Source of the DNA: Sphingomonas sp. ATCC 31555
Lineage (GTDB): Bacteria > Pseudomonadota > Alphaproteobacteria > Sphingomonadales > Sphingomonadaceae
NCBI RefSeq assembly: GCF_000282895.1
Contig: NZ_ALBQ01000042.1
Coordinates: forward strand, 1 to 64,000
Length of the DNA stretch: 64,000 nt
Direction of reading: 5' to 3'
A program made the position numbers and the translations under genes. Positions 5,118-62,162 of this stretch are shown piece by piece. The notes under the pieces are model-generated. The model saw only the letters and a program-made list of their open reading frames with translations. It had not been told where the DNA came from and searched no databases. Within the stretch, counting starts at the first letter, position 1. Every line of letters starts with the position of its first letter.

Positions 5118-6881
5118 TTAGTGGACGGTCGCCGCGTTCCGTTCGGAAACGGCGCTGCGGGCCTGCGCGGCGCGATCGAAGCGGAAGGCGCCGGCACGCT
5201 GGGCCAGCGAACTGACTTCGCCGGACAGGTTGCGGATCGCGGCCGAAGTTTCCTCGACCATTGCCGCATTCTGCTGCGTCACCAGGTCCATCGCCTTCAT
5301 CGCCGTCGCCACTTGGCTGACGGCGGCCGACTGGGCATGGTTATCATGGTCGATCGCGGCGATCAGATCGTGCACCGCTTCGACGTCGCCGGAGATCGTG
5401 TCGAGCGCCGTATCGGTATCGTGCACCGCATCGGCAGCCTGGATGATGTCCGCCTGGGTTTCGCTCAACATGTCGCGGGCCTGTTTGGCCTGATCTTCGG
5501 CACGCAGCGCCAGCGCCGCGACGAGATCGGCGACGACCATGAAGCCGCGGCCGGCTTCCCCGGCGCGACCGGCTTCCACTGCCGCGTTCATCGCGAGCAC
5601 GCGCGTCTGGAAGGCGATCTTGTCGAGCCCCTCGATTACGCCATCGATATTCTTGGCGCTGCCGCTGGCGCGATCCATTGCCTGCACGGCGCGTGCCGTG
5701 GTGCCGCGGCCGTCGCGCAGCGCGGTGGTGGCTTCGCCGGCGCGCTTTACGGTGTTGTCGGCGGCGATCATCGTCGCGCGCAGGCGTTCCTCGATCTTTT
5801 CCAGCGCCTGGGTGGCCTGGGCGAGGTTGGCAGCGCTCTTTTCGGTGCGGTGCGCTAGATCCTCCGATCCATGTGCGATTTCGCTGGAGGAGGTGCGGAT
5901 GTTCTCGGCGCTTTCGCTGACTAGCTGCACGCGCGCGCGCAGCGAAGCGATCGCTTCGTTGATGTTCTGCCGCAGCACTTCATATTCGGCCGGAAAGCAG
6001 CGGTCGATCGTACGGCTCAAATCGCCTTCGCGCAACGCGAGGAGGCCACTGCCCAGAACTTCGGTTACTTCGCGCTGCTGCGCCAGCTTGTGCGCATCGG
6101 CCTCGCTCTGCGCGGCTGCGGCGGCGCGATAATGTTCGAGGCCGCAGGCGATGCGACCCATCTCGTCGGTGCGATCCTGATAGGGAATGGTCGCCACTTC
6201 ACCGCGGGCCAGTCGATCCGTCAGGCTTGAAAGCGTGCCGACGGGTTCGAGGACACGGCGATACATGGTGATGTAGAAATGCGCAGCCTGCCCTGCGACG
6301 ATCAGACCCAGCACCACGACGATGCCGATCGCAAGATAAAATTCCGCGGCGCCGCTCGCCTGGACGCGGGTCTGCTCGGCGCGCGTCATCGCGATCAGCT
6401 TGTCCACCGCCGCGCGGTGGGTGGCATAGAGCGCGCTGAGCTTGGCATAGCTCGCGTCCATCGCCGTGCGATTCTGCAGGCGAGCGGCGGGAAGGAAGCT
6501 CTGCTCGAGTTCGGTCCAGAAAGCCTGCGCGGCCGGGTGCGCCTGTTGCAGCAACTGATTGCGCAGGCCGTCGTCGATCGATGCCGTCTGCCAATATTGG
6601 TTGCGCTCGCCGTAGAGCTTCTGGAGCTTCGACAGCTTTTCCTCATGTGCGCCCACCGTTTCCGGATTGCGGGCGATCAGCGTCGCTTCCAGGAAAGGCT
6701 CGATGATATATTCCGGGGGGGGAAGGATGTCCGCGATCAGATCGGCATTCACCTGCTGGTGCACCTGCACTTCGCCGCCCATGCGGATACGATCCAGCCG
6801 CCATGCGGCAAGCAGCCCGCCCGCCAGCAGGATCGCCATCATGGCTAAGGCGCTATTGCGAACGAAATTGGCAATCGACAT
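5118..6881 (-). CDS. Methyl-accepting chemotaxis protein with divergent tip
   Basis: A 587-residue chemoreceptor with the classic layout: transmembrane helix 1 (about 11-27), a mostly helical periplasmic four-helix-bundle-type sensor (30-180), transmembrane helix 2 (182-204), a HAMP domain (205-258) and a long cytoplasmic coiled-coil signalling domain (about 300-560). The hairpin tip keeps IAFQT and MNAAVEA but departs from the near-invariant consensus at contact positions for CheA/CheW: the Asn after QT is R427, the Glu of the ADEVR motif is L453 and its Arg is A455. No che genes are nearby. It may signal through an unusual partner or be partly impaired. The ligand is unknown. Confidence 0.9.
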   Translation of the reverse strand: MSIANFVRNSALAMMAILLAGGLLAAWRLDRIRMGGEVQVHQQVNADLIADILPPPEYIIEPFLEATLIARNPETVGAHEEKLSKLQKLYGERNQYWQTASIDDGLRNQLLQQAHPAAQAFWTELEQSFLPAARLQNRTAMDASYAKLSALYATHRAAVDKLIAMTRAEQTRVQASGAAEFYLAIGIVVVLGLIVAGQAAHFYITMYRRVLEPVGTLSSLTDRLARGEVATIPYQDRTDEMGRIACGLEHYRAAAAAQSEADAHKLAQQREVTEVLGSGLLALREGDLSRTIDRCFPAEYEVLRQNINEAIASLRARVQLVSESAENIRTSSSEIAHGSEDLAHRTEKSAANLAQATQALEKIEERLRATMIAADNTVKRAGEATTALRDGRGTTARAVQAMDRASGSAKNIDGVIEGLDKIAFQTRVLAMNAAVEAGRAGEAGRGFMVVADLVAALALRAEDQAKQARDMLSETQADIIQAADAVHDTDTALDTISGDVEAVHDLIAAIDHDNHAQSAAVSQVATAMKAMDLVTQQNAAMVEETSAAIRNLSGEVSSLAQRAGAFRFDRAAQARSAVSERNAATVH

Positions 6882-18472: not shown

Positions 18473-20272
18473 TCAGGCGGCGCGGTCGAACAGCGAAAGC
18501 AGGATCTTTGGCTGATTATTGGCGATCGACAATGCTTTCGCCGCGAGCTGCTGCTTGATTTGCGCGGATTGGAGTTTGGCGGATTCGACCGCCAAATCAG
18601 CGTCGACAAGCGCTCCCACCGCGCCGTCCAGCACGTCGGCCAATGTCGAATTGAAGCTTGCTGCGCGGTCAAAAGCGCGTGCCTTGCTGCCGAAGTGGCT
18701 GAGCGCTTCCTTCATTCGTTCCCCCGCGGCAGTGGCAGCATCGACGACACGGGACGGTTCGGACCAGTCGAGCGGTTCGAGGCCCAGGCCGGCTGCGGTC
18801 AAATCACGCGAGGTGATCCTGAGCGTGCTCTGGTCCAGATTGGTGATGACGTCATAGTTGACTGGCGCATAGCCCACGATCTGGGCGGAAGAGCTGCTCG
18901 TGGTCGCGGTGGCGACGGGGTCGGTAGTGCGGTTGAGCGCCATGCCGGTCACCGCCCAAGCGCTGTTCGGGCTGGCACCGCCAGGGTTGAACTGAAAGGT
19001 CACAGCCCCCTTTGTCGGATCATAGTCGAAGCTGACGATCTGCTGGCCGGTCACCGCAGTGCCAGCCGGGACCGCGTTGCCGCCGGGGGCGTAGGATTGC
19101 CCGGTGGCGCCGAGGCGGACCCCGTTCTGCCATGCTTCCATCACGTCGCCGACGCCAAAGGCGTCGAACGCCACATCGAGGCGCCCGGCCTGTGTCCCTA
19201 AGTCGACGCTGTAGGAGGTGCTGGCGTTTTCCGGTGGCATGTTCAGGCTCTCGCCGGCCTGTTCGGGATCGGTAGAGACGGGGAGCGGATCTCCCAGCGC
19301 AATGGATGTGACGACCGATCCGGACTGATAGGTGGTGTCGCTCGGCAGGGGGTCGTTAAGATCCTGGAGTTGTAGGCCCTGGATGGTCCAGGCGGTCCCC
19401 GGCTGTGCCCCGGCGGGATTGACCCGGATTTCCAGATCCTGTCCCTTGGCCGGATCGTAGTCAAAAGCGAGCAGCGACTTGCCCGAGACGTTGGATCCGG
19501 GCCCGGTGGCCGCGCCCCCCGGTGTGTAGGAGGCGCCAGTCGCGGCAACGCGTGTGCTGCCTTGCCAGATCTCCACCGCGTCCGGCACGCTGAAAGCGTC
19601 GATGACCAGTACCACGCGGCCTGGCGCGGCGCCGGCATTCATGGTCGCCGTCTTCGCACCTCCGCCGCTCAGCGTAGCGAGCGCCGTCGCGAAGCTGGCG
19701 GGCGTCAGGGGCGAGGCGGGCAGGCCATAGCTGGTTTTGCTCGTGTCTGTGATCGTCGATCCCTGGGGCAGCGCGGCCATAGTTGGAACGGGCGGCAGTG
19801 CATAGGCGGAGGTGGACATCGACATGGTGCTGCTGGTCCGAACCAGCGGCGCCTCTTTGCCCGTCAGCAGGTTGGTGCCGTTGAAGTCGGCGCTTTTGGC
19901 GATGCTGTTGATCTGCGTGACCAGGGCTTCGATGTATGCCCGAATGGCGGCACGCGAGGTCGCATCAGACGCGGCGCTAAGGCTGTAGCCCTTTGATTTG
20001 ATCTGATTGACGAGATCGCTGATCTGCTCAGCCCCGCTGGCGGCGACATCGAGTACCGAGCCGGCGCGTGCCATGCTTTGGCCAATTGCGCGGCGCGAGC
20101 CTGCGTCCCCACGCAGCGATTGTGCTATGATGTACGATGCGCTGTCGTCCTTGGTGCCATTCACCTTGCGGCCGGTGGAAATGCGCTGTTGTCGAAGATC
20201 GATTTCGGCCGTTGCTTCGTTCAGCGCGCGTACCGCCTGCGCTGCCGCCGTATTCGTCAATATCGACATCAT
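18473..20272 (-). CDS. Orphan flagellin with tandem inserted domain
   Basis: A 599-residue flagellin. The N-terminal D0/D1 helices (residues 1-140: ILTNTAAAQAVRAL, QRISTGRKVNGTKDDSASYIIAQ) and C-terminal D1/D0 helices (about 510-599: VDADLAVESAKLQSAQIKQQ, IANNQPKILLSLF) match the family. The middle is replaced by two related segments of about 86 residues (217-302 and 362-447), beta-rich and Gly/Asp-rich. No flagellar assembly, hook or motor gene is in the window. The gene lies between housekeeping genes pyrB and ruvX, suggesting insertion. GGAGG supports the ATG at 20272. It could be a surface-display or adhesive filament protein. Confidence 0.9.
   Translation of the reverse strand: MMSILTNTAAAQAVRALNEATAEIDLRQQRISTGRKVNGTKDDSASYIIAQSLRGDAGSRRAIGQSMARAGSVLDVAASGAEQISDLVNQIKSKGYSLSAASDATSRAAIRAYIEALVTQINSIAKSADFNGTNLLTGKEAPLVRTSSTMSMSTSAYALPPVPTMAALPQGSTITDTSKTSYGLPASPLTPASFATALATLSGGGAKTATMNAGAAPGRVVLVIDAFSVPDAVEIWQGSTRVAATGASYTPGGAATGPGSNVSGKSLLAFDYDPAKGQDLEIRVNPAGAQPGTAWTIQGLQLQDLNDPLPSDTTYQSGSVVTSIALGDPLPVSTDPEQAGESLNMPPENASTSYSVDLGTQAGRLDVAFDAFGVGDVMEAWQNGVRLGATGQSYAPGGNAVPAGTAVTGQQIVSFDYDPTKGAVTFQFNPGGASPNSAWAVTGMALNRTTDPVATATTSSSSAQIVGYAPVNYDVITNLDQSTLRITSRDLTAAGLGLEPLDWSEPSRVVDAATAAGERMKEALSHFGSKARAFDRAASFNSTLADVLDGAVGALVDADLAVESAKLQSAQIKQQLAAKALSIANNQPKILLSLFDRAA
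18932..19624 (-). repeat. Two diverged domain copies inside the flagellin
   Basis: Copy A (residues 217-302, bases 19367-19624) and copy B (362-447, bases 18932-19189) share the order IDAFSVPDAVEIWQ / FDAFGVGDVMEAWQ, AATGASYTPGG / GATGQSYAPGG, LLAFDYDPAKG / IVSFDYDPTKG and GTAWTIQGL / NSAWAVTGM. The pattern V-D-F-x-V-P-D...W-x-x-G...F-D-Y-P...GTAW resembles small beta-sandwich domains found in secreted bacterial adhesins and proteases. Confidence 0.85.
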
Positions 20273-20351
20273 GACCAGTCCTCCCTCCGCCTCGCAGAGG
20301 TAAGCGGACGAGGTAAACGGATCGTCACTGCAACGACGCTGGACGAAAAAA

Positions 20352-31896: not shown

Positions 31897-33381
31897 TCAG
31901 CGAAGCGCCACGATCAGCGTGGTGATTGCCCCGGGTTCGGCGAGCGCCTGTGCTGGTACGACCGCAGCATCCCGCGTGGAATCGGTTACAATCCGCTCCA
32001 CCACCCGCGCCCCCGGCACGCCGATCGTCAGCCGCCGGGTCACCGCGCCGCCATTGACGTGGACCAGCACCAGCCGCTTGCCGTCCGGTGATAGCGCGCC
32101 GACCGTATCGGCATCGTCGACCGGCACCAGCCGATAGCCGGGCCGGATGTAGCGGCTGAACTGCGCCATCGCCCAATATTTGCGGGTAAGCTGGATCGGA
32201 TGCTCGGCCGCCGATGCGGGTGTATAGGCCATTTTGATCAGGCCCCAGTTGCTGCCGCCACCGCTGCCGTCGCCCTTGCCCTCGCCTCGGCGCTCCACCG
32301 CCTGCCAGAACACCCAGGCGACCGGTTCCAGCCGCTTGAGATCGTGGACGACATGCTCGGCAAAGGCGAGCGGCGTGGCGATGCCGTCGAAATTCTCGGG
32401 ATCCTTGTCGAGCGGGGTATCGTTCTCGCTCATCCACAGGCGGATGCCATGGGCGCGGGCGATGTCGCGCACCGCCGTCTGGTGTACGCTGCCATAGCTA
32501 TGCACGTTCAACTGGCCGATCCGGGCGCGCGTCGCTGCCGGATAGCCCTGCCAGTCGCGCACGAAGAGGTGGGAGTTGGTCTCGTCGGGGGCGGCGATCA
32601 CCGTCTTGAGGCCGTGCGCCTTGAGCGCGCGGTCGGACGCATCGATCATCAGCGCCTGGCGCGCGGGGCTCCAATGCGCACCTTCCTGGGTGTTCTTGGC
32701 GAACCAATAGTCGGTATTCGGCTCGTTGACCGGCGACAGCGTGCGGAAGCTGATGCCGTGCGCCTGTTGCAGCTTGTCCACCACGATCGCCAGATACTCG
32801 GCAAAGCGCGCTTCCTGCCCGGGGCGGAGATTGTCGTCGGTGCCCTTTTCGGCGCCCGAGACCTTGCCGCTCACGGTCATGAACCAGGGCGGCGAGTTCG
32901 AGAAGGCTTCGAAGATCGGCGCCTTCACGCGGCGCTTGATCGCGTCCAGCCACCAGCGCTGGTTGGCGTCGGCGGACCAGTCCCACATTGCCGGATCGGC
33001 CGGATCCCACCAGTCGATGCCGGTTGCCCCTATGGGGCGGCGCCAGAAGCCGGGCACATCAGCGCCCAGGCGAAGATAGGGCTTGGTCTCGGGCGCGTCG
33101 CCGCCGCCGATATTGTAGCGGGCGATCGTCCAGCCCAGTCCGTCGGGCCCGTAGAACAGGTCCGCAAGCTTCTCGCGCACCGGGTCGGGATAGCCGCCGG
33201 TGACGTGCGCGAACCAGGCGAGCGCCGTGCCCCAGCCCTCAAAGGGCTGGCCAGGCCGCTGGAGGTCGGGTCGCAGCGTCAGCGTCACCGCCGGTTCGGC
33301 AGCGGGCGGCGGCACACTCGTCTGGGCGAGCGCGGCGGGGGAGGCGGCGAGCAGCAGCGAGAGGGCGAGCGCGCGGATCAT
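31897..33381 (-). CDS. GH30-family secreted hydrolase, endo-beta-1,6-galactanase-like
   Basis: A 494-residue enzyme with a signal peptide (cut after about residue 20, AALAQ). The (beta/alpha)8 barrel opens FEGWGTALAWFAH, as in GH30 subfamily 5, which holds endo-beta-1,6-galactanases acting on arabinogalactan side chains. The acid/base is E220 in SPVNEPNTD and the nucleophile E319 in WMSENDTP. A C-terminal beta-sandwich follows (from about 420). The start overlaps the GH27 stop by ATGA, so both are made together. The family is confident. The galactanase activity is inferred from the subfamily-like motif and neighbours. Confidence 0.87.
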   Translation of the reverse strand: MIRALALSLLLAASPAALAQTSVPPPAAEPAVTLTLRPDLQRPGQPFEGWGTALAWFAHVTGGYPDPVREKLADLFYGPDGLGWTIARYNIGGGDAPETKPYLRLGADVPGFWRRPIGATGIDWWDPADPAMWDWSADANQRWWLDAIKRRVKAPIFEAFSNSPPWFMTVSGKVSGAEKGTDDNLRPGQEARFAEYLAIVVDKLQQAHGISFRTLSPVNEPNTDYWFAKNTQEGAHWSPARQALMIDASDRALKAHGLKTVIAAPDETNSHLFVRDWQGYPAATRARIGQLNVHSYGSVHQTAVRDIARAHGIRLWMSENDTPLDKDPENFDGIATPLAFAEHVVHDLKRLEPVAWVFWQAVERRGEGKGDGSGGGSNWGLIKMAYTPASAAEHPIQLTRKYWAMAQFSRYIRPGYRLVPVDDADTVGALSPDGKRLVLVHVNGGAVTRRLTIGVPGARVVERIVTDSTRDAAVVPAQALAEPGAITTLIVALR

Positions 33382-34745
33382 GCCGCCGTCACCCGATAGA
33401 GGCAGGCGCCGTGCGGCGGCAGCGTGCGCGCGAGCCGGAGCGGGCCTTGGCCCTCGTCCTTGCTCTCCCACAGGTTGCGCACCCGCACCGCGCCCGCCAG
33501 ACCCAACAGTCGCAGGTCGAACGCAGCCTCGCCGGCCTTGTCGCCGGTGTTGAACAGCGCGACATAATGGCCGCCCCCGGCCGCGCGTGCGGTCCAGACG
33601 CGGCGATCGTCGGCGACGAACCAGGGGCGGTTGTCACTGCTCGCCTGGTTCACCGCGATCACCTCCCGATTCGTGAGCAGCGCGCGGGTTGGGGCGTCGA
33701 GATGCCGCAGGTCGCCGCCCATGATCAGCGGCGAGCGGGCGATCGACCAGAGCGTCATTAGCGTCCGCTGCTCGTCGGGGGTGAACTTGGTGTCGCGCTG
33801 GCCAAGCGCGAGCCGGCCGAGCGGGAGCATGTCGGCATCCGGCCAGGCACCCGGGCGGGCGTACGGGCTCCAGTTTTCCAGCCGGGTGAACTGGGCGTCC
33901 AGCAGCTTCCACTCGTCCCAGAAATCGTCGGAGATGCGCCACATCTGGGCATGGCGAGCGACATGGTCGGCGCGCGGCACCGGCGTCTCGCCGGGCGAGA
34001 GGCTCAGCAGGATCGGCTTTCCCGTTGCCTTGATCGCGCGCGCCGCCGCTTCGATCTCAGGGGCATGCGCATCATAAGGGCGGCTCATATCGTCCATTTT
34101 CACGAAATCGACGCCCCAGGCGGCGAACAGCGAGAACACGCTGTCATAATAGGCCTGCGCCCCCGGTTTGCGCATGTCGACGCCGTACATGTCGGGGTTC
34201 CAGGGACAGGTGCTGCCGGTATCGGCGATATCGGCGGCGCGGACCCCGCTGGTGCCGAGGATCGGCAGGTTGCGTTCCACCGCGAGTCGGGGAATGCCGC
34301 GCATCAGGTGGACGCCGAAGCGCAAACCCAAAGCATGTACCTTTGCGGCGATCGGGCCGAAGCCTTTGCCATGCGCTGCCGAGGGGAAGCGGTTCGGCGC
34401 CGGTAGCAGCCGCCCATGGGCGTCCATCGTCGGCACCGGCTTGGCGTTATAGGTGTAGCTGTTCGCTTCCGGCTCGTACCATTGGATGTCGATGGTGAAG
34501 ATGTCGTAGCCGAATGGCAGCAGCTCGCGCGCCTGGATCTCGGCTATCTCCAGCGCCTGGGCTTCGGTGATGGTGGTGGCGAAGCTGTTCCAGCTGTTCC
34601 AGCCCATGGGCGGCGTGGGCGCGAGCGGCGGCGCCTTTGCGGAAGCGCGTGCGTGCGGCGCGGCTGCGAGGCTGCCCAACATCGCCGCACCCTGGAGCAG
34701 CCCGCGCCGATGGATGACGTGACCGCGCGCGTTGAACCCTGGCAT
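33378..34745 (-). CDS. GH27-family alpha-galactosidase or beta-L-arabinopyranosidase
   Basis: A 455-residue enzyme with a twin-arginine-like leader (HRRGLLQGAAML), so exported. The GH27 barrel has PPMGWNSWNSF, TIDIQWY, the nucleophile in VDFVKMDD (D218) and the acid/base in WRISDD (D273/274). A C-terminal beta-domain closes it. The start at 34745 has GGAGGA at good spacing. GH27 enzymes remove terminal alpha-galactose or, in some cases, beta-L-arabinopyranose, both found on plant arabinogalactans. It is the first gene of a pair with GH30, downstream of the GntR regulator. A putative operator lies 17 bp upstream of its start. Confidence 0.88.
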   Translation of the reverse strand: MPGFNARGHVIHRRGLLQGAAMLGSLAAAPHARASAKAPPLAPTPPMGWNSWNSFATTITEAQALEIAEIQARELLPFGYDIFTIDIQWYEPEANSYTYNAKPVPTMDAHGRLLPAPNRFPSAAHGKGFGPIAAKVHALGLRFGVHLMRGIPRLAVERNLPILGTSGVRAADIADTGSTCPWNPDMYGVDMRKPGAQAYYDSVFSLFAAWGVDFVKMDDMSRPYDAHAPEIEAAARAIKATGKPILLSLSPGETPVPRADHVARHAQMWRISDDFWDEWKLLDAQFTRLENWSPYARPGAWPDADMLPLGRLALGQRDTKFTPDEQRTLMTLWSIARSPLIMGGDLRHLDAPTRALLTNREVIAVNQASSDNRPWFVADDRRVWTARAAGGGHYVALFNTGDKAGEAAFDLRLLGLAGAVRVRNLWESKDEGQGPLRLARTLPPHGACLYRVTAA

Positions 34746-34761
34746 CGCTTCCTCCTCCATT

Positions 34762-34776
34762 TTTTGTCTGACTATA
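34762..34776 (-). promoter_or_regulatory. Putative GntR operator on the GH27-GH30 promoter
   Basis: On the minus strand the sequence reads TATAGTCAGACAAAA. The TATAGT can serve as a -10 box with TTGACG 15 bases upstream. The core GTC-N-GAC-AAAA recurs at 35631-35641 and, with changes, at 59292-59302. It fits the GT-N3-AC core known for FadR-subfamily GntR repressors. Confidence 0.5.
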
Positions 34777-34808
34777 AGCCAGGACGGCGGCCGTCAACGT
34801 CGCCGGGA

Positions 34809-35516
34809 TCAGCCTTGGAGCGAGGTTTCGATATCTTCCTGTGCCTGTAGAATCAGCGTGATGGTCGCAGCGCGGGCGGCGACCGGATCGCCATCGGTGA
34901 TGGCGGAGAACAGATCCCGGTGCAGCGGGATGGAGTCGCGCAACTGCTTGGCCTTGCGGTGCTTGAACAGAGTCGTGGAGCGCACCGCGGCGCCGATGCT
35001 GCCGGACAGGCTGATCAACAGGTCGTTGGCGGTCGCTTCCAGGATGATGTTGTGAAACTGCTGGTCGGCGGCTTGGCCCTCCGCACTCGACAGCCCTTCT
35101 TCTTCCATCACTTCCAGCGCGTGGCCCAACCGGGCGATATGCCGCGTGGTGCGCAGGCGCGCTGCCATTTCCGCCGCGGCGGGCTCCACGATCATGCGCA
35201 GCTGGAACAGGCTGTCGACAAATCCCATCGGCGGCTCGCCTTCGAACATCCAGGCGAGCAGATCGGGGTCGAGCAGGTTCCAATCGGCGCGAGCGCGAAC
35301 GCGGGTACCGGCCTTGGGGCGACTGTCGATCAGACCCTTGGCGGCCAACGTCCGCAACGCTTCGCGCACCACGCTGCGGGATACGTTCCGCGATTCGGCG
35401 AACTCCAGCTCGCCGGGCAGGACCGCGCCAGGCAGATAGCGCCCCGTGAGGATTGCCACGCCTAGCTCGCGCGCGAGCGATCGATGTGCCGGGTTGCGTT
35501 TCGCCTGCCGAACCAA
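34809..35516 (-). CDS. GntR-family regulator, FadR/FCD subfamily
   Basis: A 235-residue regulator. The N-terminal winged HTH has LARELGVAILTGRYLPGAVLPGE and NVSRSVVREALRTLAAKGLI, and the FCD all-helical effector domain (about 90-230) has the family residues in LFQLRMIVEPAAAEMAA, QQFHNIILEA and LHRDLFSAITDGD. Start is a TTG at 35516 with GAGG close upstream; no better start is seen. It sits between the GH27-GH30 pair and the GH2-GH51-GH43 operon, so it is the obvious local regulator. A shared motif near three promoters supports repression relieved by a sugar, probably galactose- or arabinose-derived (inference). Confidence 0.88.
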   Translation of the reverse strand: MVRQAKRNPAHRSLARELGVAILTGRYLPGAVLPGELEFAESRNVSRSVVREALRTLAAKGLIDSRPKAGTRVRARADWNLLDPDLLAWMFEGEPPMGFVDSLFQLRMIVEPAAAEMAARLRTTRHIARLGHALEVMEEEGLSSAEGQAADQQFHNIILEATANDLLISLSGSIGAAVRSTTLFKHRKAKQLRDSIPLHRDLFSAITDGDPVAARAATITLILQAQEDIETSLQG

Positions 35517-35602
35517 AGCCTCATCCCTTGTAGTGCTTGCCGTTGTGCGGCGCGGCTATCGCTGTGGCCACAAAAAATAACAGCATGTGCTTCGGAACGT
35601 GC

Positions 35603-40552
<4,950 letters not shown>

Positions 40553-40556
<4 letters not shown>

Positions 40557-41908
40557 GGACGCGACTGGCTCTGGTGGCGGCGGCGGGCTTGCTCGCCGCC
40601 GCCGACGCACCGGCGCCGAGCTGGGAGACGCCGGGGGACAGCAATCCGCTGATCCCCGGCTATTTCGCCGATCCCTCGATCGTGCGCGACGGCGGCACCT
40701 GGTATCTCTACGCCACAATCGACCCTTGGGGCGACGACCGGCTGGGGATGTGGACTTCCGTCAACGGTCGCGATTGGACCTTCTCCACCCCTGCCTGGCC
40801 CACCAAGGCGGCGGCGACGAGCCCGAGTTCGGGCGATTCCAAAGTGTGGGCGCCTTCGGTGGTGAAGGCGGCCAACGGCCGCTGGTACATGTATGTGTCG
40901 GTGGGATCCGAAGTGTGGGTGGGCAGCGCGCCGTCCCCCGCCGGGCCCTGGGCCGATGCCAATGGCGGCAAGCCGCTGATCGCCAAGAGCTTCGCGCCCG
41001 CCTATCACATGATCGACGCCGAAGCCTTTATCGACGACGATGGCACCGCCTATCTGTACTGGGGCTCCGGCCTCAACTGGGTCAACGGGCACTGCTTCGT
41101 CGTCAAGCTGAAGCCGGACATGGTGACCTTCGACGGCGTTCCGCGCGACGTCACGCCGGCCAATTATTTCGAGGGTCCGTTCTTGGTGAAGGCGGGCAGC
41201 CACTATGTGCTGACCTATAGCGACGGCAAGACGACCGAGGACAGCTATAAGGTCCGCTACGCCATCGGCGAGACGCCGTTCGGGCCGTTTCGCGAAGGCC
41301 CCGACAGCCCCATCCTCTCCACCGACCGCGGGCGGCACGTGATCAGCCCAGGGCATCACGCGATCTTCCGCGTCGGTGCGCAACCCTACATCCTGTATCA
41401 CCGCCAATCGCTGCCCTGGCCACGCGTGGGGGAGGATGCGACGTTGCGGCAGATTGCGGTCGATCCCCTGACGATCCGCGGCGACGGCACGATCGCCCGC
41501 GTTACGCCCAGCCATGGCAGGGCGGTGGCCGGCTTCGCCCCGCGTCGCACGCGCGGCATCGCGCTTCGGCTCAGCGGCGCCGCCGCCGGCCCGGCCTATG
41601 CCGCCGATCGTGCCGCAGACGACAATTACGCGACGCAGTGGCGGCCTGCGGCGGGCACCGATCCCGTGCTGACGGCGGATCTCGGTCGCGTGCAGGCAGT
41701 GCGTGAGACCCGTCTCCGAATGGAATATGCCCAGCGGGCCTATGATCTTACGGTGGAGGGCTCTGCGGACGGACGGAACTGGCGGCTGCTCGCCCGGCGT
41801 GCGGCGGCAAGCGGATCGCCCATCAGCCTTGCGCATCCCGCGCGCGTCCGGTTCCTGCGGTTGCGCGTTCCGCAGGATGCGGGCCTTTGGGAATGGGGCG
41901 TGTTCTGA
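40553..41908 (+). CDS. GH43-family hydrolase with C-terminal discoidin-like domain
   Basis: A 451-residue protein starting at GTG (GTGA overlap with GH51) with a short signal-like N-terminus. The five-bladed GH43 propeller has base D40 in GYFADPSIV, the pKa-modulating D155 in MIDAEAFIDDDG and acid E207 in YFEGPFLV. After about residue 340 an F5/8-type C (CBM32-like) domain is suggested by ADRAADDNYATQWRP and the final VRFLRLRVPQ. Linkage specificity cannot be read; arabinosidase or exo-galactanase activities occur in GH43 and would fit the operon. It is the last gene of the unit, with no clear terminator. Confidence 0.88.
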
Positions 41909-56787: not shown

Positions 56788-57945
56788 TCAGCGCGCGGCG
56801 GGAACCACGCCCCTGGGTGCGGCCGACAGCCGCTGGATCAGGTCGACCTCGGCCTGGCGATAGGGCTTGCCGTCGCCGTGGAAGACCTCGTGGAACCAGA
56901 TGGTTGGCTCCTCATAGGTATAGGGCTTCTTCCAACTGTCCCAGGGCAGCCGGGTCTGCGACTTGCCGTCGACGAAGCCCCAGTTGAACATACCGATGTT
57001 CAGGCGCTTGCCGATCGGCAGCGTGCCGTCGAAGGTCGATCCGTTGCCGCGCGCCATATATTCGGTGCACAGCACCGGGCGGCCATAGCTGAGCATCTGG
57101 TTGGCGCGGCGCTCGAACGTCTCGGGCCAGCTGTAATCGTGGAAGCTCAGCACGTCGGACTGGGCGATCTGGATCTTCTCGACCGCGTCCAGCTTGCTCT
57201 GATCGTCCCAATGCTCGCCGATCCAAACGCCCGAGGTGAGCGGCTGGATCGGATCGGCCGCGCGCGCCGCCGCGAACATCCGGGGCAGCAGCAACGCAAC
57301 ATACTTGTTCTTGTCCGGCGTTGGCGCGTAGTTGCCGCCGCCGCCGTTGTTGGGCTCGTTCCAGATGTCCCAGCCAAGGACGCGCTCGTCCTTCGCAAAA
57401 GTGGTGACAAGGTCCTTCACATAGGCTTCGAGCTTCCCGTACTGCGCCGCATCCTTCAGCCGTGCCGCACCAGGCGACTGCGCGGAACCCGAGTTATGGA
57501 CGCCGGGGATCGGCGGATGCTGTGGGCCGGCCCTGGGATCGGGATCCCAGCAGCTGTCGAAGAAGATCCACAGCGTCTTGATGTGGTGCTTCGCCGCGAT
57601 CGTCATGAAATCGTCCATGCGCCGCTTGAGCCCCGGCGCATCGGTTTCCCACAGCAGGTGGTGCAGGTTCACGCGCATGACGTTCATGCCGATCTTCTCG
57701 GCCCAGCCGAGTTCAAGATCGATGCGCGTCGGATCCCAGGTTTCGGCCTGGAACATCTCGAGCTGGTTGATCGCGGTGGCGGGGGTGAAATTGGCGCCCA
57801 CCATCCAGGGCTGCTGGGCGTACCAGGCATTGGCCTCGGCCTTGGTCCATTGGTCGCGCGCCTCGGCGCTCGGCACGGTCGCGGCGATCGCCAATGCGGC
57901 GCCAGCGAGAAGGCCAGAGGAAAGGAATGTGCGGCGGATCATCAT
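56788..57945 (-). CDS. Secreted clan GH-A hydrolase, GH5-like
   Basis: A 385-residue enzyme with a twin-arginine-like leader (RRTFLSSGLLAGAAL). A (beta/alpha)8 fold is shown by MVGANFTPATAINQLEMFQ, NVMRVNLHHLLWETD, acid/base E197 in IWNEPNN and nucleophile E295 in CTEYMARG. This group is often labelled 1,4-beta-xylanase or cellulase-like, but substrates are poorly known and I leave them open. The start has GGGGAG upstream. It lies 25 bp after the epimerase gene on the same strand, so the two are probably one transcript. Confidence 0.82.
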   Translation of the reverse strand: MMIRRTFLSSGLLAGAALAIAATVPSAEARDQWTKAEANAWYAQQPWMVGANFTPATAINQLEMFQAETWDPTRIDLELGWAEKIGMNVMRVNLHHLLWETDAPGLKRRMDDFMTIAAKHHIKTLWIFFDSCWDPDPRAGPQHPPIPGVHNSGSAQSPGAARLKDAAQYGKLEAYVKDLVTTFAKDERVLGWDIWNEPNNGGGGNYAPTPDKNKYVALLLPRMFAAARAADPIQPLTSGVWIGEHWDDQSKLDAVEKIQIAQSDVLSFHDYSWPETFERRANQMLSYGRPVLCTEYMARGNGSTFDGTLPIGKRLNIGMFNWGFVDGKSQTRLPWDSWKKPYTYEEPTIWFHEVFHGDGKPYRQAEVDLIQRLSAAPRGVVPAAR

Positions 57946-57970
57946 CAGGTCTGCTCCCCTACAGGTTCAT

Positions 57971-59128
57971 TCAGCGCTTCTTCGGCGCGGCCGCCCGGCC
58001 GGTGGTCAGGCGATAGGTCATCACGTTGCGATAGGTCTGGCCGGGATCGAGTCGGGCGTTCGGAAAGCCCTTCTGGTTCGGCGAATCCGGGAAGATCTGC
58101 GGCTCCATCACGATCGCGTCGCCCTCGCGGTAGATGCGCTTGGCCTTGCCGTGCGTGGTACCGTCCAAGAAGTTGCCCGAGTAGAATTGCAGCCCGGGCT
58201 GGTTGGACCACAGCTCGAAACCGCGGCCGGATGCTGGATCATAGACCTTCGCCATCAGATGCTGGTCGCGGGTCACGGCGCGGCCGATCACCCAATTGTG
58301 GTCATAGCCTCGGCCAAAGACGATCTGCTGGTCGCGCGCATCGCGGACGCGCTCGCCGATCGGCTGGGGCGTGCGGAAATCGAACACCGTGCCCGCCACG
58401 CTCTTGAACTCGCCCGTGGGGATCGCACCGGCATCGGTAGGCAGATAGGTCTGTGCCGGGATGGTGACGCGGTGGCCCATCGCACCGTTCGCGGAGCCCT
58501 CGCCAGAGAGGTTCCAATAAGCGTGGTTGGTGATGTTGGCGATCGTCGGCGCATCGGTTTTCGCGACATATTCGATCGTCAGGTTGTTCTGCTCATCGAG
58601 CGCATAAGTGGCGTCGACGGTCATCGTGCCGGGATAGCCCTGATCGCCGTCGCGGCTGATCGCGCGCAGCGTCACCGAGGCGGTGGGGCCGTCCTTTACC
58701 GACACCACGTCCCACAGCAGCTTGTCGAAGCCGAGGGTGCCGCCGTGCAGCGCGTTCTTGCCGTCGTTGACCGGCGTCTGGAAGCTGCGCCCGTCGAGGC
58801 GGAACCTGCCCTCGGCGAGGCGATTGGCGAAGCGGCCCACGGTCGCGCCGAAATACTGCCCCTTGGCGAGATAGTCGGCCATGTTGTCATAGCCGAGGAT
58901 CACGTCCGCCTTGCGGCCGGCGCGATCGGGCATCACCAGCGACTGGAGCATTGCGCCATAGGCAACGACGGTCGCCGAAACGCCGCGCGCATTGGTGAGC
59001 GTGACCGACGTGACGGTGCGACCGTCCGCCATTTGCCCGAACGTGCCGCGCTTGGCGGTCGCCGCCTCGGCCGCGCTGGGAAGCGCAACCATTGCAGCGA
59101 TGCCGCCGATCGCCGTCAACATTCTCAT
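57971..59128 (-). CDS. galM: Exported aldose 1-epimerase (mutarotase)
   Basis: A 385-residue GalM with a signal peptide (cut near AAEAATA). It interconverts alpha and beta anomers of galactose and other aldoses. The catalytic His lies in ITNHAYWNLSG and the catalytic Glu in MEPQIFPDSPN; GRFANRLAEGRF and GYDHNWVIG are substrate-binding segments. Periplasmic mutarotases often accompany sugar-degrading loci. It is divergent from the TonB receptor, with which it shares the 259-bp promoter region. Confidence 0.92.
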   Translation of the reverse strand: MRMLTAIGGIAAMVALPSAAEAATAKRGTFGQMADGRTVTSVTLTNARGVSATVVAYGAMLQSLVMPDRAGRKADVILGYDNMADYLAKGQYFGATVGRFANRLAEGRFRLDGRSFQTPVNDGKNALHGGTLGFDKLLWDVVSVKDGPTASVTLRAISRDGDQGYPGTMTVDATYALDEQNNLTIEYVAKTDAPTIANITNHAYWNLSGEGSANGAMGHRVTIPAQTYLPTDAGAIPTGEFKSVAGTVFDFRTPQPIGERVRDARDQQIVFGRGYDHNWVIGRAVTRDQHLMAKVYDPASGRGFELWSNQPGLQFYSGNFLDGTTHGKAKRIYREGDAIVMEPQIFPDSPNQKGFPNARLDPGQTYRNVMTYRLTTGRAAAPKKR

Positions 59129-59271
59129 CGCCTGATCCTCCCGATGTTGTTCCGGCCATCGCTGGCCTCGCCCGCTGACGCGACGCCGCCGGGCAACTGC
59201 GTGCCTAACTGCCAGTTCAAGGAGGGCTTATCTATCTTACAAATACCAAAATCACATATGTTATGAAGGTT

Positions 59272-59302
59272 TTGCCGGTGTTCGGCGTTAGGTCTGATAA
59301 AT
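59272..59302 (+). promoter_or_regulatory. Possible promoter and GntR operator of the TonB receptor gene
   Basis: A candidate -35 TTGCCG (59272-59277) and -10 TGATAA (59295-59300) have 17-base spacing. The -10 lies within GGTCTGATAAAT, a one- to two-mismatch copy of GTC-N-GAC-AAAA found at the GH27 and GH2 promoters. It lies 86 bp upstream of the receptor start. Confidence 0.35.
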
Positions 59303-59387
59303 ACACGGCAAGCACCGTCCTCGCTGCGGATTGTGCACCATAACAAGCAATCCCACGCAACGACGCGGGAGAACAGGGGAGGTTGCA

Positions 59388-62162
59388 ATGACCATCAAGC
59401 CGCTTTTGTGCGCGTCCGTCTCCTTTGTTGTCGGGCTCTCGCTTCCACCGGCGGCATCTGCCCAGAGCGTCCAGGGCGCGCCCCAGCCGCAGACGTCCAG
59501 CGCCGACAGCATCAATCCCGCGTCGCCCGCGCCTGCCGTGCAGGAAATGGCGCCCGGGGAGGCGATCATCGTCACCGGCCTTCGTCGCAGCTTGCAGTCG
59601 GCGCAGTCGATCAAGCGCAACTCGGACGGCATCGTCGATGCGATCGTTGCGGAGGATATCGGCAAGCTCCCGGACACCTTCGCCTCCTCGGCGCTCCAGC
59701 GCATTGCTGGCGTCAACGTCACCCGCGGCGCCGGTGAAGCCGCCGGCGTGACCGTGCGCGGCCTGCCGGACCTGACCACCACCTATAACGGCCGCCAGAT
59801 CTTCACCGCGGAAGGCCGCTATGTCGCGATCCAGGACTTTCCGGCCGGCACCGTGGCGGCGCTGGAAGTGTACAAGTCCGGCCTCGCCAGTCAGATCGAA
59901 GGCGGCATCGCGGGCGCAGTGAACGTGCGCGGCCGGCGGCCCTTCGACTTCAAGGGCTTCGAGGTCTCAGGCTCGCTCAACGGGGTGCTGTCGCAGCAGT
60001 CGAAGGGCACGACCTGGAACGGGAACCTCCTGATCAGCGACCGGTGGGACACTGGGATCGGCGAAATGGGCCTTCTGGTGAATGGGTCCTATGTCGGCGT
60101 CAACTTCCTCGATTCGACCCGCGAACAGTCGCTGGTGATCGCGACCACCAACGCCGGCAACGCGCCTGCCGGTCAGGCGGGGCTGCGCTATCCCGATGCG
60201 CAGGGGATCTTTCTCGGCTATGGCGACCGCTGGCGCCCCTCGGCCAACGCCGCCTTCCAGTGGAAGCCGACGCCCGAGCTCGAAATCTATGCCGACGGCC
60301 TGTTTCAGGGGTTCCGCTCGCGCGATTACAACCGCTTCATGTTCATACCGATCTTCGGCGACGGACTGCAGCTGTCGAACATCACGACGCAGCAGAACAG
60401 CAACAAGATCGCCAGCATGACGGTGAGCGGCGCGTCGCGGCCGGACGGCTATAGCGGTTCGTTCAACGGCCACACCGATACTTATCAGGGCGGCGGCGGC
60501 GCGATTTGGACGCGCGACCGGCTGCGCATTTCGGCGGACGTCGCGTACACCGACAGCACGTACACCGCGAACAACGTGAACATCGACTATGCCGCGGCCA
60601 GCTCGCCCGTGCGCGAAGTGCAGTTCGAGGCGCCGGTGGACGGCGGCCCGACCCAGCGCTTCGTCAACTTCAGCCTCACCGATCCGGCCAACTTTATCAG
60701 CCGCGGCCTGTGGCAGGAGCTTCTGGTGGTGAGTGGCACCGACTGGCAGGCGCGCACCGATCTGTCCTATGACTTCGATGCCGGCTTCCTCAAGCGCATC
60801 GATGTCGGCCTGCGCTATTCCGATCGCAACGCGGGCCGCGACCTCGGCAATCTCTACATCAACAACGAAGCCGGCCGCGTTCCGCTGACGTCCTTGCCGG
60901 GCGCCGATGTGCGCCCCACGCGGCCGGGCTTCGCCTATAACGACGTGCAGCCCAACGTCGTCTATGCCGCCAGCACGCGCGACAGCATCCGCGACAATCT
61001 TCCGGCGCTGCGCAGCTTCTTCGGTGCGCCGGCCGGCATCCCGCCGTTCAACCCGGCCGAGACGTTCCGCGCCAACGAGAAGTCCTACGCCGCTTATGCC
61101 CAGGTGAAATACGGCTTCGATCTGGGCAACACGATCATCGACGGTGTGGTCGGCCTGCGCGCGGTGAAGACCAAGACGCAGATCAACGGTTTCTCCCGCG
61201 TGGAGGATGCCGGCGGCGTCGTCACCAACCCGCCGGTGAGCGCCAGCAACGACTATACCGACTATCTGCCGAACGCGAGCGCCCGCATCGCCTTCACCGA
61301 CAAGCTGCAGCTGCGCCTCGCCTTCACCCAGACGCGCACCCGGCCCAATTTCTTCGACCTGCGGCCGAACACCTCGCTCGGCCAGCCGGTGATCCTCGCC
61401 CCCGGCGATCCCTGCCTCGCCGATGCCACCGCCCCCGAATGCGTCGAGCGCCTGCGCCGCGGCGGATCGTCGGGCAATCCGTACCTCAAGCCGCTGACCT
61501 CGGACAATTACGACGCCAGCCTCGAATGGTACTTCTCGCGGTCGGGATCGTTCACCGCCGCGATCTTCCGCCACGACGCCAACGGCTTCCTAGCCACGAT
61601 CGACGATCGCACCCAGCCCGGCCTGCGGCTCGCCTCGCCGGTCAATCTCGGCAAGACCAAGCTGCAGGGCGCCGAGCTGACCTTCACCAGCTTCCTCGAC
61701 ATCGACGGGCTGCCGGACTGGGCCAAGGGCTTCGGCGTCCAGGCCAACGGCACCTATATCGACGCCAAGGGCGACCTGGTCCCCAATTTCGCCGCGACCT
61801 ATGGCAACCGCCAGCAGGCCTTCCCGGGCGTGTCGAAATGGTCGGGCAACATCGTCGCCCTGTACGAGAAGCCGCAATTCTCGGCGCGGGTCGCCTATAA
61901 CTACCGCTCGAAGTTCGTGTCCTTCTACAGCCTCGAGGCGCTCGACCCGATCGCCCACCCGGTGATCGAGAAGGGCCGCGGCCAGCTCGACCTGTCGGCG
62001 ACGGTCACCCCGGTCGAGAACATCACGATCGCGTTCGACGTGATCAACGTGCTCGGCAACCCGCTGCAGCGCTATCGCCAGTTCGACACTGGCGACAGCT
62101 ACACGCGGCAGGTGCTGTATCTCGAGCGCGCCTATTCGCTGGGCGTCCGCTTCCGCTTCTGA
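59388..62162 (+). CDS. TonB-dependent receptor, probably for oligosaccharides
   Basis: A 924-residue outer membrane transporter. Signal peptide (about 1-25, ending SASAQS region), an N-terminal segment EAIIVTGLRRSLQSAQSIKRN acting as the TonB-box/plug start, the plug domain (AEDIGKLPDTFASSALQRIAGVNV), then a 22-stranded barrel ending in LGVRFRF with terminal Phe. It is of the Sphingomonadales/Caudobacter large receptor type used for plant glycans. Linked to GH genes on both sides. Preceded by ggggagg. Substrate, probably an arabinogalactan fragment, is inferred from neighbours. Confidence 0.92.
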   Translation: MTIKPLLCASVSFVVGLSLPPAASAQSVQGAPQPQTSSADSINPASPAPAVQEMAPGEAIIVTGLRRSLQSAQSIKRNSDGIVDAIVAEDIGKLPDTFASSALQRIAGVNVTRGAGEAAGVTVRGLPDLTTTYNGRQIFTAEGRYVAIQDFPAGTVAALEVYKSGLASQIEGGIAGAVNVRGRRPFDFKGFEVSGSLNGVLSQQSKGTTWNGNLLISDRWDTGIGEMGLLVNGSYVGVNFLDSTREQSLVIATTNAGNAPAGQAGLRYPDAQGIFLGYGDRWRPSANAAFQWKPTPELEIYADGLFQGFRSRDYNRFMFIPIFGDGLQLSNITTQQNSNKIASMTVSGASRPDGYSGSFNGHTDTYQGGGGAIWTRDRLRISADVAYTDSTYTANNVNIDYAAASSPVREVQFEAPVDGGPTQRFVNFSLTDPANFISRGLWQELLVVSGTDWQARTDLSYDFDAGFLKRIDVGLRYSDRNAGRDLGNLYINNEAGRVPLTSLPGADVRPTRPGFAYNDVQPNVVYAASTRDSIRDNLPALRSFFGAPAGIPPFNPAETFRANEKSYAAYAQVKYGFDLGNTIIDGVVGLRAVKTKTQINGFSRVEDAGGVVTNPPVSASNDYTDYLPNASARIAFTDKLQLRLAFTQTRTRPNFFDLRPNTSLGQPVILAPGDPCLADATAPECVERLRRGGSSGNPYLKPLTSDNYDASLEWYFSRSGSFTAAIFRHDANGFLATIDDRTQPGLRLASPVNLGKTKLQGAELTFTSFLDIDGLPDWAKGFGVQANGTYIDAKGDLVPNFAATYGNRQQAFPGVSKWSGNIVALYEKPQFSARVAYNYRSKFVSFYSLEALDPIAHPVIEKGRGQLDLSATVTPVENITIAFDVINVLGNPLQRYRQFDTGDSYTRQVLYLERAYSLGVRFRF

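Follow-up and report, generated by a model that had tools for sequence, protein, structure and literature searches.

What does a flagellin do when its gene stands alone between ruvX and pyrB and its middle region carries two copies of an inserted domain? The question is raised by the window analysed here, a 64,000-nucleotide stretch of the Sphingomonas sp. ATCC 31555 genome. An earlier note on this DNA had placed the gene correctly, between pyrB and ruvX, and omitted its strand, which is minus (Table 1). Specifically, ruvX lies 79 bp upstream of the gene and pyrB 53 bp downstream, followed by pyrC, all on the same strand.

Table 1. Accessory flagellin gene, its parts and an upstream stretch, in positions of the window.
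Feature	Coordinates	Strand	Length or basis
GATCCGTTTACC, part of an upstream stretch	20312..20323	minus	stretch occurs in varying form in six Sphingomonas orthologues
Accessory flagellin gene	18473..20272	minus (20272..18473)	599 aa, stop included
N-terminal D0/D1 core, residues 1-139	19856..20272	minus	Pfam Flagellin_N and model superposition
D1 beta extension and linker to domain A, residues 140-203	19664..19855	minus	strands in the model
Inserted domain A, residues 204-308	19349..19663	minus	copy alignment and model, pLDDT 93
Linker between inserted domains A and B, residues 309-348	19229..19348	minus	repeat limits and model
Inserted domain B, residues 349-453	18914..19228	minus	nearest is the single copy of the one-copy Sphingomonas relatives
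C-terminal D1/D0 core, residues 505-599	18476..18760	minus	Pfam Flagellin_C; helix 506-596 in the model

The two ends of the protein form an intact flagellin core, as the earlier note had described. In a Pfam search of the 599 residues, Flagellin_N (residues 4-139, 64.5 bits against a cut-off of 26.6) and Flagellin_C (residues 511-595, 38.3 bits against 23) were the only families above their cut-offs, and two further listed families stayed below theirs. The full-length predicted model (mean pLDDT 81.7) superposes on flagellar filament subunits with a D0/D1 fold, and its core matches Caulobacter FljM with a Z score of 19.6 and an rmsd of 3.7 over 259 residues at 35% identity. The same D0/D1 core is found in Caulobacter FljK, FljL, FljM and FljN (6xky, 8uxk, 8uxn and 9cef), but these flagellins are short, with 270-273 residues, and carry no inserted domains. 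Between the N-terminal core and domain A, the model places strands at residues 139-152, 172-176 and 179-182, and an LPxSxLTPxxF-type linker before domain A is common to the two- and three-copy homologues.

The two 86-residue copies that had been read from the sequence, residues 217-302 and 362-447, proved to be the cores of the longer domains A and B, which share 42% identity over 99 residues (E 7e-29 in a single pairwise comparison). Modelled alone, with 17 copies aligned, the inserted domain is predicted to fold as a beta-sandwich (pLDDT 93). It showed no match to an ordinary D2/D3 domain in the searches made: Pfam returned no flagellin D2/D3 family at E 1 and, for all 17 copies searched up to E 10, nothing convincing, and no flagellin D2/D3 domain appears among the best 50 fold matches listed. 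When the PDB was searched by sequence, three queries (middle region, domain profile and the related domain of phage PaBG) gave unconvincing matches alone, the best at 0.01, and Foldseek found no PDB match at E ≤ 0.001. VIA-align scores ranged from Z 8.3 to 6.3 among the 50 matches listed, which include GOLD domains, the EclA lectin domain, collagen-binding domains, CBM51, CBM36, a phage baseplate protein, the C-terminal domains of the subtilases SubHal, KP-43 and Tk-SP and of VesC, and pesticidal and other toxin domains. The guess that the insert resembles small beta-sandwich modules of adhesins and secreted proteases therefore holds in part, since subtilase C-terminal, lectin, collagen-binding and CBM domains are among these matches; GOLD and toxin domains score equally, CBM36, CBM51 and the EclA lectin domain (Z 6.4-7.9) being tied with GOLD domains among the matches listed, and a Z under 8 may reflect no more than a common arrangement. 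The predicted fold thus resembles those of lectin, CBM and protease C-terminal domains in a loose way. As for a metallopeptidase insert of the flagellinolysin kind, the 599 residues contain no HExxH motif, and NF033876 scores 19.4 bits against a cut-off of 205.

Does the gene supply the main flagellin of this organism? Three Flagellin_N matches occur in the genome. Besides the window gene, they are an ordinary flagellin of 285 residues and a FlgL-like gene, both on contig C11, where the ordinary flagellin lies inside a flagellar gene cluster. FlhA and all five Flg_bbr_C matches, of the rod, hook and FlgK type, also lie on C11, together with further genes that we take, by recognition, to encode flagellar proteins. 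On the contig of the window, Flagellin_N matched once and FHIPEP and Flg_bbr_C not at all, so that the claim of no other flagellar gene in 64 kb stands for these three families, the ones searched. The label "orphan" likewise applies within the window and fails genome-wide. We rejected the window gene as the main motility flagellin, because the flagellar cluster of the same genome has its own 285-residue flagellin; as that cluster stands on another contig, the window gene is an accessory flagellin set apart from the flagellum genes of its genome. The window also contains a gene for a methyl-accepting chemotaxis protein with HAMP and MCP signal domains (5118-6881).

On contig C13, a second FHIPEP match resembles SctV more than FlhA and scores below both cut-offs; of its neighbours, a SctN-like gene is below its cut-off, and SctD and SctT are above theirs. 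By its gene content, this locus encodes an injectisome-type type III secretion system, its SctV- and SctN-like genes, SctD and SctT lying at about 132-147 kb of C13 (L138). Each of the six tested Sphingomonas genomes with the accessory flagellin has a second FHIPEP locus. Since the C13 match leans towards SctV and stands beside Sct genes, we consider it less likely that a second export system serves the accessory flagellin.

FHIPEP was found in 10 of the 11 genomes tested, the exception being Altericroceibacterium xinjiangense. This genome has an intact insert-bearing flagellin (G013:C1:79609-81435, L043), and searches of it returned no FHIPEP (FlhA-type), no Flg_bbr_C (rod-hook) and no other Flagellin_N match; the genus is described as non-motile in PMC7660246. 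A flagellum-based role may therefore not hold for every member, and this copy offers a chance to ask what a lone flagellin does. In S. pituitosa (G676), a search showed no ordinary flagellin. We rejected the reading that the accessory gene is its only flagellin, because contig C16 breaks off precisely at the start of the gene for the ordinary flagellin, and the missing gene is best read as an effect of the assembly. Repeated flagellin copies may lie at this break.

Next, we collected relatives. A scan of an 84,980-species collection with two short patterns gave at least ten loci, and a plasmid search added three more full-length relatives. The 13 members with an open frame, the window gene included, carry 23 copies of the domain. 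Four Sphingomonas members have one copy each; those of the window organism, Altericroceibacterium, three Brevundimonas and three Novosphingobium plasmids have two; and that of a Brevundimonas MAG has three. A fourteenth member, from S. trueperi, has an in-frame stop, which shows that the gene is dispensable at least there; the frame is thus open in 13 of 14 members, leaving uncounted the truncated second copies on plasmids. Both N. resinovorum plasmids (L091 and L092, 14677-16218) carry such a second copy, without the N-terminal core and annotated as "hypothetical protein" or "flagellin". Insert-bearing flagellins are rare. The domain profile matched 6 of 295 Sphingomonas genomes, 5 of 131 Brevundimonas genomes and 2 of 397 genomes of the family, and at class level 1 of 385, the window's own.

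In a tree of the conserved ends, with the inserts omitted, a branch with support 100/98 separates the insert-bearing flagellins from all others. Their side holds 22 rows representing 14 genes, some of them twice, and the other side 45 flagellin rows, a non-exhaustive background picked by similarity; the tree as a whole was built from loci L008-L026 and L058-L087, filtered by score. Several background flagellins come from genomes that also have an insert-bearing one, and one of them (L023) carries a different middle of 207 residues. The S. trueperi locus (L047) was omitted from the alignments, the domain set and the dN/dS comparison, with its part after the stop (G863, L067) in the core tree; the truncated Novosphingobium copies were left out of all trees, and the fifth Brevundimonas genome (G913) was not read. 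The core tree argues that the insert-bearing flagellins form one lineage, and the search for the same insertion in other flagellins, proposed in the earlier note, thus returned a single rare lineage with one to three copies.

The copies themselves suggest how their number has changed. Domain A of the window protein is 50-53% identical to the first copies of Brevundimonas and 40% identical to its own domain B, which in turn is 64-69% identical to the single copy of the four Sphingomonas orthologues; support in the domain-copy tree is modest. Two copies are probably the ancestral state, because the linkers around domain A recur in the two-copy proteins of other genera. The one-copy Sphingomonas group has then probably lost a block of roughly residues 177-317, and the third copy in the Brevundimonas MAG may be a gain. 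Across ten pairs, dN/dS was 0.10-0.44 over the full length of the gene and 0.11-0.48 within its middle region, with some synonymous distances saturated; these ratios indicate that purifying selection has kept the gene, inserts included, in the pairs compared.

Is the position of the gene conserved as well? All five Sphingomonas relatives for which locus data exist, among them S. trueperi, keep the order ruvX-flagellin-pyrB. Between the window and its Sphingomonas relatives, pyrB is 98-99% identical, ruvX 87-92% and the flagellin 59-61% (four open members), and faster divergence of a flagellin than of its neighbours is common for surface proteins. Among the best 30 of 59 matching genomes, none of 28 other ruvX loci has this flagellin within 1.5 kb of ruvX, while 16 of the 28 have pyrB within this distance; in the same best 30 of 59, the gap between ruvX and pyrB is below 100 bp in five of nine measured cases and 50 bp in one very close relative. 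The flagellin gene has been gained or lost at the ruvX-pyrB junction. In another Sphingomonas, the junction holds what we take, by recognition, to be an OmpA-like frame (L098, 1959-2912), which suggests repeated gene uptake at this site.

The gene is patchily distributed, and in Brevundimonas and Novosphingobium it lies on mobile or accessory DNA. In Brevundimonas it is within about 8 kb of restriction-modification genes: L041 has an EcoRII-type system, including a C5 methylase and Vsr, besides a umuC-like gene, and L042 has a type III system; L045 is similar by eye and L044 too short to judge. In Novosphingobium it is plasmid-borne and adjoins genes for a histidine kinase and a response regulator on all three plasmids (L004, L005 and L036). 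This pair occurs on either strand and is 75-76% identical between P6W and N. resinovorum; at E 0.001, neither the window nor any of the 10 further loci compared contains a match to it. It is a possible regulator of the plasmid flagellin.

The inserted domain has kin among phage structural proteins, namely tail-fibre and virion proteins, as profile and predicted-fold comparisons indicate. Of the 17 domain copies, 14 match PHROG 26008, which we infer from its length of 673 to be a protein of large Erwinia/Dickeya phages, with E values no higher than 1, the best being 4.9e-6. Searched among predicted viral proteins with Foldseek, the domain matched a Brevibacillus phage virion protein (E 5e-5) and a protein of Pseudomonas phage PaBG (E 6e-4, 32% identity). 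The 17-copy profile finds two copies in the PaBG tail-fibre protein, at 34.1 and 15.7 bits, the former equal to E 1e-12 for the one sequence searched, a target picked after the earlier matches. Of the 60 phage records that tblastn returned at E ≤ 0.01 with the PaBG copy as query, 46 belong to Erwinia phages, 8 to Dickeya phages and 3 each to Pseudomonas and Brevibacillus phages; those of Brevibacillus are annotated as virion structural proteins and the listed Erwinia and Dickeya ones as hypothetical. The flagellin inserts are thus related, by profile or fold, to modules in PHROG 26008, the PaBG tail fibre, the virion proteins of SecTim467 and Jenst, and Erwinia/Dickeya hypothetical proteins, with the difference that the PaBG copy lacks a 13-column stretch in mid-domain.

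This phage link is uneven, because the window's own domain A does not match PHROG 26008, the profile of that family searched against the window organism's genome finds the window gene at E 0.0175, and tblastn with domain B against phages gave nine records, the best being PaBG at E 0.02. A pattern scan of viral contigs returned 271 matches, none of them a relative. The tail-fibre and virion kinship of the modules nevertheless adds to an adhesin-like reading of the protein.

We favour the reading that the gene encodes an accessory, adhesive filament subunit that displays binding modules for attachment, and give it a probability of about one half. It is favoured because the core is suited to assembly, the modules would point outward and have kin in phage structural proteins, and another Sphingomonas, MF220, is reported to use one flagellin for swimming and another for attachment and colonisation (PMC13015449). 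As an adhesive subunit, the accessory flagellin would most likely be exported by the flagellar apparatus encoded on C11 and would polymerise by way of the conserved D0/D1 core, joining the ordinary filament or building one of its own. Each subunit would then present two beta-sandwich modules on the filament surface, which most likely bind a surface polymer and would make the filament a multivalent adhesin. Swimming would be left to the short ordinary flagellin, a division of labour. If true, this would be a natural case of a filament re-armed through the number of its surface modules, with module kin in phage tail fibres, and would allow a clean test, in sphingomonads and brevundimonads, of how swimming and sticking are divided between flagellins.

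The modules may instead serve to change the coat of the filament, hiding it from flagellum-targeting phages, plant or animal immune receptors or grazers, with polymer binding beside the point. The plasmid location in Novosphingobium and the restriction-modification genes nearby in Brevundimonas fit such a role, and a prophage-encoded replacement flagellin is reported to lower immune activation (PMC13418256); yet the search for flagellum-using phages described in that source found none, and the window gene adjoins ruvX and pyrB, not a regulator of the main flagellin. We hold this to be unlikely. The same duplicated domains would also suit contacts along the filament that stiffen or thicken it for viscous media, and published work reports both that dimerisation of outer domains modulates motility (PMC8931119) and that swaps of variable domains altered it (PMC13418256). 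Such tuning of the propeller is rather unlikely, however, as copy number differs among close relatives (Sphingomonas members have one or two copies, Brevundimonas members two or three) and an intact member persists where no flagellar apparatus was found, and a purely propulsive role leaves both points unexplained.

A passively spreading accessory gene with no stable function in each host could account for the rarity of the gene in Sphingomonas and Brevundimonas, the S. trueperi stop, the truncated second copies on two Novosphingobium plasmids and the empty ruvX-pyrB junction of a very close relative, but the low dN/dS ratios in whole gene and middle region and the frames left open in nearly all members speak against it, and we consider it quite improbable. 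A bolder extension of the adhesive reading, rather doubtful as it stands, is that of a transferable "adhesin flagellin" cassette used in any host flagellum, and through some other surface route in Altericroceibacterium, without a flagellum. Here a flagellin lineage would have taken up a receptor-binding module of phage tail-fibre type, gained and lost copies of it (one to three), and spread between genera via plasmids and accessory islands.

How do the accessory flagellin and its relatives compare with described systems? Domain insertions in flagellins and flagellins on mobile DNA are already reported, in PMC5595980 and PMC13418256 respectively, the former describing 61 putative domain families in flagellin hypervariable regions. 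The flagellinolysin-type flagellins in that source likewise hold a folded domain between conserved ends, spread by transfer and occur in a subset of species; their insert is a metallopeptidase, whereas the window insert is a predicted beta-sandwich without HExxH, in one to three copies within its lineage. FliC-H and FliC-L of MF220 offer a second, divergent flagellin in Sphingomonas as well. Both genes lie in flagellar islands as that paper reports them, unlike the window gene, which is alone between ruvX and pyrB, as are those of L046-L050, and the word "insert" is absent from the main text of PMC13015449. The alginate-binding flagellins of Sphingomonas sp. A1, proposed to be surface binding proteins as cited there, resemble the window flagellin in this putative role. 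The prophage flagellin FliC_P with TldR (PMC13418256) is likewise a flagellin on mobile DNA, able to remodel the host filament; in that cassette TldR and prophage genes are adjacent, whereas the window gene, as far as this locus goes, is adjoined by ruvX and pyrB, and relatives of it sit on plasmids or islands. In the open-licence flagellin papers searched, the list of 61 families aside, we found neither this inserted domain nor its copy-number variation and spread, and no treatment of "orphan flagellin" as a topic.

Finally, we looked at the surroundings of the gene in the window. With up to two mismatches, the upstream stretch is absent from 40 kb around the ordinary flagellar genes, where 0.8 occurrences per half are expected by chance, and across the window three were found at two mismatches against 3.1 expected. 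The glycan-use genes to which the earlier note had drawn attention are present, but they start about 12 kb away, while the arrangement kept in the relatives is ruvX-flagellin-pyrB, so this neighbourhood is weak evidence for a function of the flagellin. The glycoside hydrolases lie at 31897-41908 and 56788-62162 and belong to families 30, 27-like, 2, 43, arabinofuranosidase and 5, accompanied by a TonB-dependent receptor. By the look of these enzymes, their substrate is presumably plant hemicellulose or arabinogalactan.
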